From Desulfobacterales bacterium (GTDB lineage: Bacteria; Desulfobacterota; Desulfobacteria; Desulfobacterales; UBA11574), in the NCBI GenBank assembly GCA_030145595.1, contig JAQYVG010000001.1, forward strand, positions 1 to 32,483: a DNA stretch of 32,483 nucleotides, written 5' to 3'. The translations under genes were made by a program, and so were the position numbers. Shown one piece after another: positions 4,559 to 10,952 of the stretch (the stretch's first letter is position 1; every line of letters starts with the position of its first letter). Below the pieces are notes generated by a model, which saw nothing but the letters and a program-made list of their open reading frames with translations, was not told where the DNA came from and ran no database searches.

Positions 4559-6898
4559 ATGGATAAAAAATATGGTGTCTATATTTGCACAGGTTGCGGC
4601 ATCGGAGATGCCCTGGTAATGGAAGATCTGTGTGCCGTGCCTGAAGAAGAAGGTTTTTCCGTTAAAACCCATCCGTTTCTCTGCGGAGCCGAAGGCCTTG
4701 AACTCCTTAAAAAAGATATCGCCGATGACGGCGTCAACACACTGATGATTGCCGCCTGTTCCCGCCGGGTCAATTACGATGTCTTCAAGTTCGAAGGCTG
4801 CATTGTCGACCGGGTGAACCTGAGAGAACAGGTGGTCTGGTCCCATCCCAGATCTGAATTCCCGGCCCTTACGGAAGACCAGAAAGATGACGGTGAATCC
4901 TTCGATCGTCTGCAGATGCTGGCCGAAGATTACCTGAAGATGAGCATGGCCAAGCTTGAAAAGATCGATCTGCCGGAGCCGTACAAAGTGGAAACCCTGA
5001 GCAGAAAAATTATGGTTATCGGCGGCGGCATCACCGGTATTTCAGCGGCCCTGGATGCGGCCAAAGCCGGCTATGAGGTTACTATCGTTGAAAAAGAGTC
5101 GTCTTTGGGCGGCTATGCGGCCAAGATGCGCAAACAACTGCCCAACGAAGACCCCTATGAAAATCTTATTCCACCGGTTATTGAAAGCAAGATCAAAGAA
5201 CTGGAAGGCTATGACAATATCACCGTTAAAACCGAGACCATCGTAGCCCGTCTCGCCGGTGAACCGGGAGATTTCATTGTAACGCTGAAAAAGCCCGGTG
5301 AAAAAATCGAGTTTGACGTCCCCTTTCCGCTGCCCGAAGAGATGAAGTTCGATGAAAACGGCAAAGAGCTCGATGTTGAAGATCAGCATAAACGCTATCT
5401 GGAATACAATGAAGGCAAACTTGACATTTTGCAGTTCGATCCTGACGGTGAAAAGTTCGGAGCCGTAGTCCTGGCGGCCGGCTGGCGCCCGGATCAACCT
5501 GAGGGCGATGAATTTGCCCATTTGGGTTTCGGGGAACTGCCCGATGTCATCACCAACTGCCAGTTCGAAGAAATTGCCGCCAAGGGCAAAGTAACCAGAC
5601 CGTCGGACGGCAAAGAAGCCAAATCCGTGGCCTTTATCCAGAGTCCCGGCAAGGGGGATGACGATGCTGATTTTAAGTATTGTGGATCGGTGACCAGCCT
5701 GGTGGCCCTCAAGCAGGCCAAATATGTACGCGAAGACTACGACGACAGCAAGGCCTATATCTTTTACCAGCACATGCGTACCCCCGGCCTGACGGAAAAC
5801 TTTTACAAGAGCATCCAGCAGGACGAGGGCATCTTTCTGACCAAAGGCGACGTCATCAGCGTCTCTACAAATGGAGACGGCATGATTTTGGAAGCGGACA
5901 ATACCCTTTTGGGAGAAAAAGTCAAGGTCATCGCCGATCTGGTTGTACTGGCCACCGGTATGGTCCCGGTAACCGTTGATGACCCTGTGGTCAACATGGC
6001 GTATCGCCAGGGACCTTCGTTTCGGGAGATCGGTCTTTTCGACGGCTTTTGCGATTCAAACTATATCTGCTTCCCGTATGAAACCCAGCGAACCGGTATT
6101 TATGCGGCCGGAGGCATCCGGCGCAGCATGACCATGGAAGAGTCCATGGAAGACGCCACCGGTGCCGCCCTTAAAGCGATTCAGTGCATTGAATCGGTCA
6201 ACCGCGGCGTGTCCGTGCACCCCCGGTCCGGTGATATGACCTTCCCGGACTTCTTTTTCCAACGATGCACCCAGTGCAAGCGCTGTACCGAAGAGTGCCC
6301 TTTTGGCGCTTTAGATGATGATGAAAAGGGAACTCCCAAACCGAACCCGTCGCGCTGCCGGCGCTGCGGCACCTGCATGGGCGCTTGCCCCGAACGTATC
6401 ATCGGTTTTGCCGACTTCAACATCGACAGTGTCGGCTCCATGGTCAAGGCCATCGGTGTGCCCTCTGAAGATGATTATTACGAGCCTCCCTTTAGGATCG
6501 TGGGATTTGTGTGCGAAAACGACGCCATGCCGGCCCTTGATATCGCCGGTTTGAACAGGCTTGTCTATTCAGCCGACGTGCGCTTAATCCCGATTCGGTG
6601 TCTGGGCTCCATGAACGTTATCTGGATCAAAGACGCCCTGGCCCAGGGCCTGGACGGAGCTTTCCTGCTGGGCTGCAATCACGGCGACGATTATCAATGT
6701 CATTTTATCAAGGGCAGCGAACTTTCGGAAATCAGAGTCCAAAAGATTGGTGAGGCCTTGTCGAGCCTGGCCCTGGAAGAAGAACGGGTCGCCCAGTTCC
6801 AGGTCGCCATCGACGAATACGATAAAATTCCCAAGATGATTAATGACTTTGTGGAACAGGTAGAAGCCCTCGGCCCCAACCCGTTCAAGGGATTCTAG
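4559..6898 (+). CDS. qmoB: quinone-interacting membrane-bound oxidoreductase subunit B (HdrA/MvhD-like)
   Basis: Second soluble flavoprotein of Qmo, 779 residues. It has an HdrA-like N-terminal segment with C10, C13, C42 and C67, then a FAD site at 154-160 (GGGITG). Two ferredoxin-type [4Fe-4S] sites follow (C570, C573, C576, C580 and C600, C603, C606, C610). The C-terminal region resembles MvhD, with the motifs GFVCENDA, RCLGSM and GCNHGDDYQCHF. In the HdrABC-MvhD paradigm such domains exchange electrons with a partner, so this subunit may contact AprBA or an additional soluble donor; that is inference. The ribosome binding site TAGGAGGTT (4546-4554) includes the qmoA stop codon. Confidence 0.96.
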   Translation: MDKKYGVYICTGCGIGDALVMEDLCAVPEEEGFSVKTHPFLCGAEGLELLKKDIADDGVNTLMIAACSRRVNYDVFKFEGCIVDRVNLREQVVWSHPRSEFPALTEDQKDDGESFDRLQMLAEDYLKMSMAKLEKIDLPEPYKVETLSRKIMVIGGGITGISAALDAAKAGYEVTIVEKESSLGGYAAKMRKQLPNEDPYENLIPPVIESKIKELEGYDNITVKTETIVARLAGEPGDFIVTLKKPGEKIEFDVPFPLPEEMKFDENGKELDVEDQHKRYLEYNEGKLDILQFDPDGEKFGAVVLAAGWRPDQPEGDEFAHLGFGELPDVITNCQFEEIAAKGKVTRPSDGKEAKSVAFIQSPGKGDDDADFKYCGSVTSLVALKQAKYVREDYDDSKAYIFYQHMRTPGLTENFYKSIQQDEGIFLTKGDVISVSTNGDGMILEADNTLLGEKVKVIADLVVLATGMVPVTVDDPVVNMAYRQGPSFREIGLFDGFCDSNYICFPYETQRTGIYAAGGIRRSMTMEESMEDATGAALKAIQCIESVNRGVSVHPRSGDMTFPDFFFQRCTQCKRCTEECPFGALDDDEKGTPKPNPSRCRRCGTCMGACPERIIGFADFNIDSVGSMVKAIGVPSEDDYYEPPFRIVGFVCENDAMPALDIAGLNRLVYSADVRLIPIRCLGSMNVIWIKDALAQGLDGAFLLGCNHGDDYQCHFIKGSELSEIRVQKIGEALSSLALEEERVAQFQVAIDEYDKIPKMINDFVEQVEALGPNPFKGF

Positions 6899-8194: not shown

Positions 8195-8229
8195 AAGGGG
8201 ATACAGAAATGTATCCCCTTTCTTTATTT
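8195..8229 (+). terminator. intrinsic terminator after qmoABC
   Basis: A perfect 10-bp stem, AAGGGGATAC (8195-8204) with GTATCCCCTT (8211-8220), has a 6-nt loop and a following T-rich tract (TCTTTATTT). It lies 36 bp after the qmoC stop. Confidence 0.85.
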
Positions 8230-8457: not shown

Positions 8458-8485
8458 TTGACTTTAGAGATATTTATTGTATTAA
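8458..8485 (+). promoter_or_regulatory. putative promoter for the structured leader or small RNA
   Basis: TTGACT (8458-8463) and TATTAA (8480-8485) are separated by 16 bp, close to a sigma70-type promoter. The predicted start near 8492 lies just upstream of the structured element at 8527-8577 and about 290 nt before the HDOD kinase gene. Confidence 0.45.
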
Positions 8486-8491
8486 TTTAAG

Positions 8492-8586
8492 TAATAATAT
8501 CAAAACGTTTACTTGGCATCTTCCAGCACCTCCTTCCCTAATGGGAAGTGGTGGCTCCTGTTGCTAGCTGCCACTTCTCTTTATTT
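8492..8586 (+). ncRNA. candidate small RNA or attenuated leader with anti-Shine-Dalgarno motif
   Basis: Two hairpins compete. The first pairs CTTCCC (8533-8538) with GGGAAG (8543-8548). The second is a 12-bp stem with two G-U pairs, 8545-8556 with 8566-8577, followed by TCTCTTTATTT, which looks like an intrinsic terminator. The sequence CACCTCCTT at 8527-8535 equals the anti-Shine-Dalgarno end of 16S rRNA. It is left unpaired when the terminator stem forms and partly hidden when the first hairpin forms. With the promoter at 8458-8485 this predicts an RNA of about 90-95 nt. It matches no RNA family I recognise. Alternatively it is an attenuator in the leader of the downstream kinase gene. Confidence 0.4.
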
Positions 8587-8783
8587 GATGAATAGATTTA
8601 CTAAAATCTTGAAATATTATAATACAAATTTGTCTAAAACAAGACAGCCAAAACTACCGCAGAAAGAAACAATGGCGGGCATCCTGCAGAATGTTGTGTG
8701 AATACTTCAAAAGAAAACCTAATTTGTACCGGTTTAATAGTGTGAATCGATATGAGAGTATCAAATGATAATGGTGGTGCTTG

Positions 8784-10952
8784 ATGCAAGAGCGTTCCGT
8801 TCAATTCTTCGATAAAATAAAGACTTCAAAAAACCTTCCCTCACTTCCTCAAATTCTATTAAAACTGATCGAACTCTGTAATAGTGAAGACAGCACATTC
8901 AAGGACATCGCCCAAGTCATCGATAAGGATACGTCTTTAAGTGCCAAAGTTGTCAAGATGGTCAATTCTGTCTATTATGGACTATCCAAAAGGGTAACAA
9001 GTATTGATCAGTCTCTGGTACTTTTAGGGCAAAATACAATCAAAAATATTGCCATTAGCGCGTCGGTTAATCAAGCTTTCAGCAAAGCAAAAGACAATTC
9101 TGTTTTTGGGTTGAAGGTTTTCTGGAGGCACTCTCTGATGTGTGCCATATTGTCCAAGCTGATTGCTAAAAAGATATCATACGCTTCTCCTGATGAGGCA
9201 TTTTTGACAGGGCTTCTTCACGATATAGGCAAGTTGGTTCTGTGGGTAAACTTTCCCAAAGAATATGCTGATATTCTTAATTCATCAAAAGGTCAGTGGG
9301 ATCTGGTTTTAGCCGGAGAAGCACGCCATGGTACTACTCACTGTGAAGTTGGAGCTTGGCTGATCAAACGCTGGAAGCTTCAATCATTCATGGCAGATGC
9401 AGTGCGTTATCATCATGAAGCAGTCGATAGAATTCAAGATGCTCTTGCTCTCGTTAAGATAATATATGTTGGGAATATCCTTTGTCCCGAAACAAATAAA
9501 GAAAAAGAGGTCAAATTTGGAATAGCCAAAAATATTTTTGGATTTGAAAACTCTGAGGTAGAAGAAATCATCCTTCAAGCCGAAAAAGATGTAATAGATA
9601 TCGCACAATCTTTAGATATAGATATTGAGCCGCTTGATGTTTCAGAAAAAACTGTTTCTGAAAAAGATCATGAAAAACAAGAAGATCTAATCCAGGAAGT
9701 AAAAGACATTACTTTGTTTCATGGCACACTCCAAAATCTTTTAGAGGCTCATGATGAAGATTCTATACTGCAAGCTGCACAGGAAGGGCTTCATATCTTG
9801 TTTGATGTTAAAAATGTTTTATTTTTTCTGCATGAATCAGAAAGAAATATTCTGCTCGGCAAGGGCATCGCTCCTGACAAAAATAATGATCCAATCAATG
9901 AAGTGACAATCCCCTTGCAAAATGGAAAAAGCCTTTTAGCCAAATCCCTTCTCCAAAGAAGGCCCCTTAATTCTTTCAGCGATTCAATCAAAGACAAACT
10001 TGCAATTATAGATGAGCAAATTATCCGCTTAGTTGAACAAGACGGTGTTCTTTGCCTTCCAATGATCGCACACAAACAATATGTTGGTGTAATAGTCTTG
10101 GGATTAGAAGAGGCTCGTGTCTCCCATTTAACTGATAAGATAAAGCTTCTGATGATGTTTACTAAACAGGCGGCTTCAGCTCTTCAAGCAAACTATTTGA
10201 CCCAAAACCAGGCAAAATTAATTCAGTCTGAACGTCTGAGCGCCACGTCAACCATAGCTCAAAAGATTGTTCACGAAGCGAATACCCCATTAAGCGTCAC
10301 AAAAAATTATCTTGCCATTCTGAAGAGAAAATTGTCTGAAGATCAGCCCGTTGAAGAGGAAATCAGGATTATTAATGAGGAAATCGATCGAGTGGCACTT
10401 ATTATAAGTGAATTGTCTGATTTTTCAGAACTTAAAATCCAGCCAAACGATCCTGTGGATGTAAATGCCCTTTTGTCAAACCTGATAAGAATTTTTCAGG
10501 AATCCCTTATACTCAAGCCCGACATCAATACTCATTTAAAGTTAGACCCTTCACTTCCGGCGGTTATGACAGATAAAAACAGAATGACGCAGGTCTTTAG
10601 CAACCTTATCAAAAATGCCGCTGAGGCTATGTCGGGCAGAGGAAATCTTTGTATTAGCACCAGAGATATTTCAAATTACATCGCCGATAAAATAAACCAG
10701 GTTGCAGACAATACACAAGGGTATATGGAAATCATTATCGAAGATGATGGTCCGGGCATTCCTGATAGCGTTAAAGCACAACTCTTTGAACCTTATATTA
10801 CCTCGAAAGGGGCCGGACATGCCGGTTTGGGACTCTCCATTGTTTATAATGCAGTCAAGGAATTAAAGGGGGCCATAACTTGTGAAAGCGGCAATAAAAA
10901 AGGAACGAGTTTTAAAATAGCTTTACCAATAACCCAACATCAAGAATCTTAA
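8784..10952 (+). CDS. HDOD-GAF sensor histidine kinase
   Basis: Cytoplasmic signalling protein of 722 residues from the ATG, with no membrane segment. Numbering here includes one extra residue from the possible TTG start at 8781. An HDOD domain spans about 15-215, with LPSLPQILLKL and the HD-like GLLHDIGKL. A GAF-like domain lies at about 325-470. The kinase core has the phosphoacceptor H498 in VHEANTPL, an N-box near 601-617 (NLIKNAAEAM), DDGPGI at 655-660 and GLGLSI near 682-687. No receiver or DNA-binding domain is present, so it probably signals to the hybrid protein encoded 15 bp downstream. The input signal cannot be told from sequence. Base composition is visibly more AT-rich than apr/qmo/sat. 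The ATG is preferred over the TTG because GGTGG at 8773-8777 gives better spacing. Confidence 0.9.
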   Translation: MQERSVQFFDKIKTSKNLPSLPQILLKLIELCNSEDSTFKDIAQVIDKDTSLSAKVVKMVNSVYYGLSKRVTSIDQSLVLLGQNTIKNIAISASVNQAFSKAKDNSVFGLKVFWRHSLMCAILSKLIAKKISYASPDEAFLTGLLHDIGKLVLWVNFPKEYADILNSSKGQWDLVLAGEARHGTTHCEVGAWLIKRWKLQSFMADAVRYHHEAVDRIQDALALVKIIYVGNILCPETNKEKEVKFGIAKNIFGFENSEVEEIILQAEKDVIDIAQSLDIDIEPLDVSEKTVSEKDHEKQEDLIQEVKDITLFHGTLQNLLEAHDEDSILQAAQEGLHILFDVKNVLFFLHESERNILLGKGIAPDKNNDPINEVTIPLQNGKSLLAKSLLQRRPLNSFSDSIKDKLAIIDEQIIRLVEQDGVLCLPMIAHKQYVGVIVLGLEEARVSHLTDKIKLLMMFTKQAASALQANYLTQNQAKLIQSERLSATSTIAQKIVHEANTPLSVTKNYLAILKRKLSEDQPVEEEIRIINEEIDRVALIISELSDFSELKIQPNDPVDVNALLSNLIRIFQESLILKPDINTHLKLDPSLPAVMTDKNRMTQVFSNLIKNAAEAMSGRGNLCISTRDISNYIADKINQVADNTQGYMEIIIEDDGPGIPDSVKAQLFEPYITSKGAGHAGLGLSIVYNAVKELKGAITCESGNKKGTSFKIALPITQHQES

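Follow-up and report, generated by a model that had tools for sequence, protein, structure and literature searches.

Candidate element downstream of the apr-qmo cluster

The window analysed here is a 32,483-nucleotide stretch of a Desulfobacterales genome (G000). Just 3′ of its sulfate-respiration (apr-qmo) gene cluster lies a short plus-strand element, in which a promoter motif precedes a predicted small RNA carrying an anti-Shine-Dalgarno (anti-SD) segment. A strong terminator-like hairpin after qmoC (8195–8220) separates the cluster from the RNA. The features are as follows.

8458–8485, plus strand: sigma70-type promoter TTGACT-16-TATTAA (TTGACT at 8458–8463, TATTAA at 8480–8485, 16-nt spacer)
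8493–8586, plus strand: predicted small RNA, its 5′ end inferred from the promoter and its 3′ end from the hairpin and TTTATTT
8513–8526, plus strand: small hairpin B, weak in this copy and 5–6 bp in most other copies
8527–8535, plus strand: anti-SD segment CACCTCCTT, with CTCC invariant in 10/10 copies
8543–8579, plus strand: long hairpin C (GGGAAGTGGTGGC/GCTGCCACTTCTC), 13 pairs, whose 5′ arm can pair with the anti-SD region instead
8580–8586, plus strand: TTTATTT tract, a plausible intrinsic terminator together with hairpin C, in this genome only
8784–10952, plus strand: HDOD-GAF-histidine kinase gene, whose conserved upstream stretch begins near 8687, past the RNA

An earlier note, made from the letters of this DNA, had described a promoter-like pair, an anti-SD segment and two competing folds at this site. 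The promoter pair and the segment are present where it placed them, and CACCTCCTT occurs once in the window. Shuffled versions of 8486–8590 fold at −18.3 kcal/mol on average and the native region at −28.1 kcal/mol (z −3.4; 0/200 shuffles); hairpin C alone has −20.0 kcal/mol. Both competing folds exist, at −23.0 kcal/mol with the terminator hairpin enforced and −25.3 kcal/mol with the anti-SD paired. The latter is thus the more stable when the RNA is taken in isolation and, judged on energy only, the window copy would have its seed mostly paired.

Homologous copies within one family

A DNA search returned one clear same-genus homologue, in Ca. Desulfatibia vada (G005; JACNIG010000267). The promoter, core and hairpin are all kept in this copy, and CCTTGAC and TTGTATTAATTTAAGTA of the window promoter are the same letters there. 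A covariance model built from these two copies (R1) reached another genus. With a model lacking the promoter sequence (R2), we count ten homologous copies in 8/24 genomes of the family containing Ca. Desulfatibia (E 1e-23 to 7e-10), the match to the window copy spanning 8502–8581 (E 7e-18). Three copies (a, b and c) lie in G015, and G000, G005, G010, G012, G014, G018 and G020 hold one each. Six of the ten were used to build R2; those of G012, G020, G015c and G010 were absent from model building and are independent finds. Incomplete assemblies may explain the family genomes without a copy. Contamination of G015 stands at 8%, and its three copies may come from more than one strain.

A model built from all ten copies (R3) recovers them, and finds no convincing member outside the family in 390 genomes of the class and 395 of the phylum, groups that overlap, so that distinct genomes number fewer than the sum. 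The weak matches outside the family (G103, G283, G091, G753, G507, G747, G581 and G643) resemble coding sequence or common GC-rich terminators, with no promoter and little of the core; that in G103, a possible exception, has CACCTCC ahead of a hairpin. A scan for the core pattern with three mismatches was too loose to use. Four matches in viral contigs, and four of the five exact ones in genome contigs, were set aside as chance; the fifth is Ca. D. vada. A minus-strand reading (AAGGAGGTG, then ATG and a 10-codon ORF, with a similar arrangement in Ca. D. vada) was rejected, because it is not kept in the other copies and because the promoters and operon direction favour the plus strand.

The covariance search in Desulfobacterota thus yielded ten copies in eight genomes, with stems and CUCC core conserved. 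Support for the element comes from this comparison, namely from the promoter, core and hairpin kept in Ca. D. vada and from the ten copies in the family, and the observation of the earlier note is confirmed as real and beyond chance. On the evidence of sequence comparison, 8493–8586 is a member of a lineage-restricted, predicted structured RNA family, previously unlisted, of uncultured sulfate reducers.

Shared anatomy and alternative pairings

The copies, predicted to be about 90–110 nt long, follow a common plan: hairpin B (∼5 bp with a 3-nt loop) is joined by a short linker to RCCUCCUU, and a variable linker leads on to hairpin C of 12–18 bp. CUCC is present in 10/10 copies, and the anti-SD columns are 93% conserved versus 57% in both flanking linkers, a conserved seed in variable surroundings as in the trans-acting anti-SD sRNA class. 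The exceptions within the seed are G020, with a changed 3′ end (CCUCCAU), and G015c, with one C fewer.

The ten-sequence alignment was fitted to the R2 model and leans towards structure; in it, 97.6% of the hairpin cells are standard pairs, and five pairs have two-sided changes versus 2.6 in shuffles. Slid controls of the same alignment are only 48–62% paired. An earlier six-sequence MAFFT alignment gave 95.8% paired, with three two-sided pairs. These data bear on whether a promoter-like pair, a terminator and a C-rich stretch simply came together by chance. For such an assembly speaks that the consensus promoter/terminator scan shows no excess of sites here, and did not report the element site (hexamers below the cut-off, loop too long for the scan). 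Rfam 15 likewise has no match to the window at gathering score, and no relevant match to five copies to E 5. Chance assembly is nevertheless refuted by ten homologous copies with compensatory changes, and we consider it extremely improbable.

The 5′ arm of hairpin C is better conserved than the 3′ arm (0.93 against 0.83), as expected if the 5′ arm has a second partner. An alternative helix between this arm and the anti-SD segment is possible in 93% of cells and carries one compensatory change (U-A to C-G, in G010), which gives it modest support from the alignment. In predicted nascent folds, at the stage when the 3′ arm is still to be transcribed, eight copies have the seed mostly paired to the 5′ arm. 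In predicted full-length folds the seed is released from the arm in all copies but that of G000, where 76% pairing with the hairpin arm remains; once released, it is either free or paired to a 5′ segment, being largely free in 3/10 copies (G005, G012 and G010) and half free in G015c. The family comparison thus supports the idea of a structured RNA that is conserved, has its own promoter and carries a conserved anti-SD segment alternating between two pairings.

The terminator-like stem and T-rich tract of the earlier note hold for the window, with 13 pairs and TTTATTT, and do not carry over to the family: a U-tract follows hairpin C in G000 only (1/10 copies), so hairpin C is not a terminator across the family.

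The 5′ arm of hairpin C might alternatively be the ribosome site of a short ORF starting in the loop at UUG (AUG in G020), with the anti-SD segment sequestering it. Every copy does have a start-like triplet suitably spaced after this SD-like arm (TTG in eight, ATG in G020, CTG/TTG in G000). However, codon changes lack a synonymous bias, indels split the frames soon after the hairpin, ORF lengths range from ∼9 to 45 codons, and UUG is a weak start. We regard a coding leader as very unlikely.

Promoters and neighbouring genes

A promoter motif lies directly upstream in 9/10 copies, TTGA(C/T) sigma70-type in five and sigma54 in four. The sigma54 sites, TGGCAY-N5-TTGCT, precede the model start by ∼39–49 nt in G010, G012, G015b and G015c; the chance expectation for this motif is ∼0.0013 per 60 nt. 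In G020, a sigma54 site stands ahead of a CxxC gene that itself precedes the element. As regards an independent transcription unit, an own promoter motif is seen in nine copies, a clear terminator in G000 only and a later terminator in G014.

The genes downstream vary, encoding an HDOD kinase, a hybrid kinase, HU, cytidylate kinase or small CxxC proteins. A conserved regulated gene was not found downstream of the ten copies; several unrelated genes occupy this place, and 5/10 copies precede the 91-aa CxxC gene described next, or its operon. Six of the ten share their locus with an uncharacterised 91-aa CxxC protein (CQxCEQFEKRVKEWNY..GAIDPLPYIDDMIxPHKHLIFEG; for example L156 2577–2852, L152 5809–6084 and L149 2312–2644), for which we found no Pfam or NCBIfam match. 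The RNA is mostly placed as its upstream leader, and all six occurrences of the gene in the family stand in element loci. In G012, G015a and G015c, the AGGAG of the CxxC gene lies within ∼20 nt after hairpin C; in G020 the order is reversed, with the element behind the CxxC gene. The G014 copy looks stand-alone: there is an intrinsic terminator 150 nt further on, and no sizeable gene before a glnD-like one that begins ∼650 nt away. At about 5600–5640 of the G014 locus (L153), ∼70–110 nt past the element, there is also a perfect long inverted repeat (CAAGGGTTGGTCC...GGACCAACCCTTG) without a T-tract.

Attenuation of the HDOD kinase operon, which the earlier note had offered as an alternative, does not fit the comparison, as this operon is not a conserved neighbour. 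In Ca. D. vada the RNA precedes a hybrid histidine kinase, and the HDOD gene stands elsewhere; the ∼95 bp upstream of that gene (window 8687–8784) are conserved, and the RNA is absent there. Taken together, this finding and the local U-tract make a separate small RNA at 8493–8586 more likely than an HDOD attenuator in the window genome. The conserved stretch 8687–8784 may hold a promoter or regulatory site of its own.

A broader cis-acting reading takes the RNA as the 5′ UTR of whichever operon follows, the anti-SD segment and hairpin C forming a two-state switch that hides or frees the ribosome site, or terminates. The promoter motif upstream and a same-strand gene downstream in nearly all copies speak for it, as does the predicted competing pairing of nascent transcripts with its compensatory change in G010. 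In addition, a pairing of −15.1 kcal/mol is possible in G000 between the anti-SD region and the start region of the HDOD gene. The 91-aa CxxC gene, linked to the element in 6/6 occurrences and mostly led by the RNA, with its AGGAG close to hairpin C at three loci, also suits cis action. Against it, an alternative hairpin acting as intrinsic terminator was not found outside G000, and the element is missing from the conserved HDOD upstream region of Ca. D. vada. Nor do the copies prefer their own ribosome sites: pairing of the element with its own downstream start region and with those of other copies averages −9.88 versus −9.88 kcal/mol (nine loci, three of them paralogous, with start codons picked by eye). 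The varied downstream genes, the reversed G020, the isolated G014 and this lack of own-site preference argue against an obligate leader, whereas the frequent leader position and the nine copies without a U-tract argue against simple trans action. We take a cis-acting leader to be a minority possibility, to be weighed seriously.

Other neighbours are of signalling type: GAF or PAS sigma54 activators (G010, G015b, G020 and G015c), VpsT/CsgD-like regulators (G015b and G020), PilZ proteins (G012 and G015a), PAS-LuxR regulators (G014, G015a and G018) and kinases (G000 and G005). With the CxxC linkage, they tie the family to signalling, possibly to surface-lifestyle control, and the RNA may have its physiological role in such circuits. 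Two loci (L156 2–3862 and L150 2486–5223) combine a divergent GAF-sigma54 activator, a sigma54 promoter, small CxxC proteins and a VpsT/CsgD-like regulator, an arrangement resembling a surface-lifestyle switch of uncultured Desulfobacterales.

A proposed gated anti-SD riboregulator

Hfq (PF17209) was not found in any of the 24 family genomes, although five control genomes searched in the same way do have it, which speaks against a classical Hfq-type trans sRNA. The model that we prefer, and to which we give about an even chance, is an Hfq-independent anti-SD riboregulator, a lineage-restricted RNA with its own promoter that would act mainly in trans, with gated exposure of its seed. The RNA would be made from the promoter directly upstream, sigma70 in the window copy and sigma54 in other copies. 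Acting mainly in trans and independently of Hfq, its RCCUCCUU segment would pair with Shine-Dalgarno sequences and block ribosome entry. Exposure of the seed would be gated by the 5′ arm of hairpin C (GGGAAGGGG-like, and itself SD-like), which would have two alternative partners, the seed and the 3′ arm of the hairpin.

With an anti-SD core as generic as this, no targets can be named. Exact complementarity to the AGGAGGT ribosome binding sites of aprB, qmoB and qmoC, to which the earlier note had drawn attention, is indeed found (at 648, 4547 and 7006), and predicted duplexes of the anti-SD with apr/qmo ribosome sites range from −11.7 to −17.0 kcal/mol. This complementarity is common to any strong SD and is thus no evidence for those targets; that the RNA might regulate apr/qmo is speculation from generic SD complementarity.

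The segment might instead serve as a ribosome-directed decoy, a copy of the 16S rRNA 3′ end that titrates SD sequences generally, with no specific targets. In agreement with this, the best conserved part is the 16S tail core, and the bases flanking the seed vary between copies, which argues against one specific target. A decoy would need to be highly abundant, however, and sigma54 control in signalling loci suggests a specific use; we consider it quite unlikely. The 16S rRNA tail pattern itself (GGNTGGATCACCTCCTT) is absent from all 24 family assemblies, one-contig genome included, probably reflecting masked sequence.

A more elaborate form of the gated riboregulator, which we put forward tentatively and with low confidence, is a 16S-tail mimic gated by an SD-mimic strand in the same RNA. 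It would be sigma54-activated in several copies and would act as a multi-target, Hfq-free regulator of translation of signalling and perhaps sulfate-respiration genes in these uncultured sulfate reducers. Within a single short RNA, an rRNA-tail mimic that alternates with an SD mimic would make a simple, testable switch, and the short segment kept in the family is predicted to be capable of occluding ribosome-binding sites. If genomes in which Hfq is not detected do keep such a riboregulator, controlled by sigma54 or sigma70, they would illustrate how RNA regulation proceeds in the absence of this chaperone.

Comparison with known systems

An RNA family of this kind is not listed in Rfam 15, and our literature searches returned nothing on anti-SD small RNAs in sulfate reducers or on sigma54 sRNAs of Deltaproteobacteria. 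The Qrr sRNAs of Vibrio are sigma54-dependent, lie near an enhancer-binding activator, occur in several copies per genome and need Hfq. The family is like them in that some copies have a sigma54 promoter motif near an activator, and in that a genome may hold several copies (three in G015). In contrast, Qrr RNAs depend on Hfq and have other seeds, half of the copies here have sigma70-type promoters, and there is no Rfam match; a sigma54 promoter lies upstream of 4/10 copies, the window copy not among them.

Anti-SD or SD-sequestering attenuators and riboswitch expression platforms use mutually exclusive pairings of an anti-SD strand, as the element is predicted to do. The element differs in having no known ligand-binding domain and no conserved regulated gene, and in that hairpin C mostly lacks a U-tract. 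In RNAIII-type sRNAs, an unpaired C-rich segment pairs with SD sequences, and Hfq is not needed. The element would resemble these in both respects, but no homology is seen, and architecture and lineage are different. Such C-rich-loop sRNAs of Gram-positives, RNAIII among them, are mentioned alongside the alpha-r14 family (PMC3927594).

The alpha-r14 sRNAs of Rhizobiales (NfeR1/SmelA075; PMC10746234, PMC3927594) come closest. In these, as here, the anti-SD motif is much better conserved than the stems; NfeR1 silences mRNAs through aSD seeds, is Hfq-independent (PMC10746234), and is linked to two-component signalling. Each of their three hairpins displays CCUCCUCCC in its loop, whereas the element has one RCCUCCUU between two hairpins, and stems, lineage and promoters also differ. 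The element, which has no Rfam match, is thus not a member of alpha-r14, and its nearest functional precedent is NfeR1 of that family.
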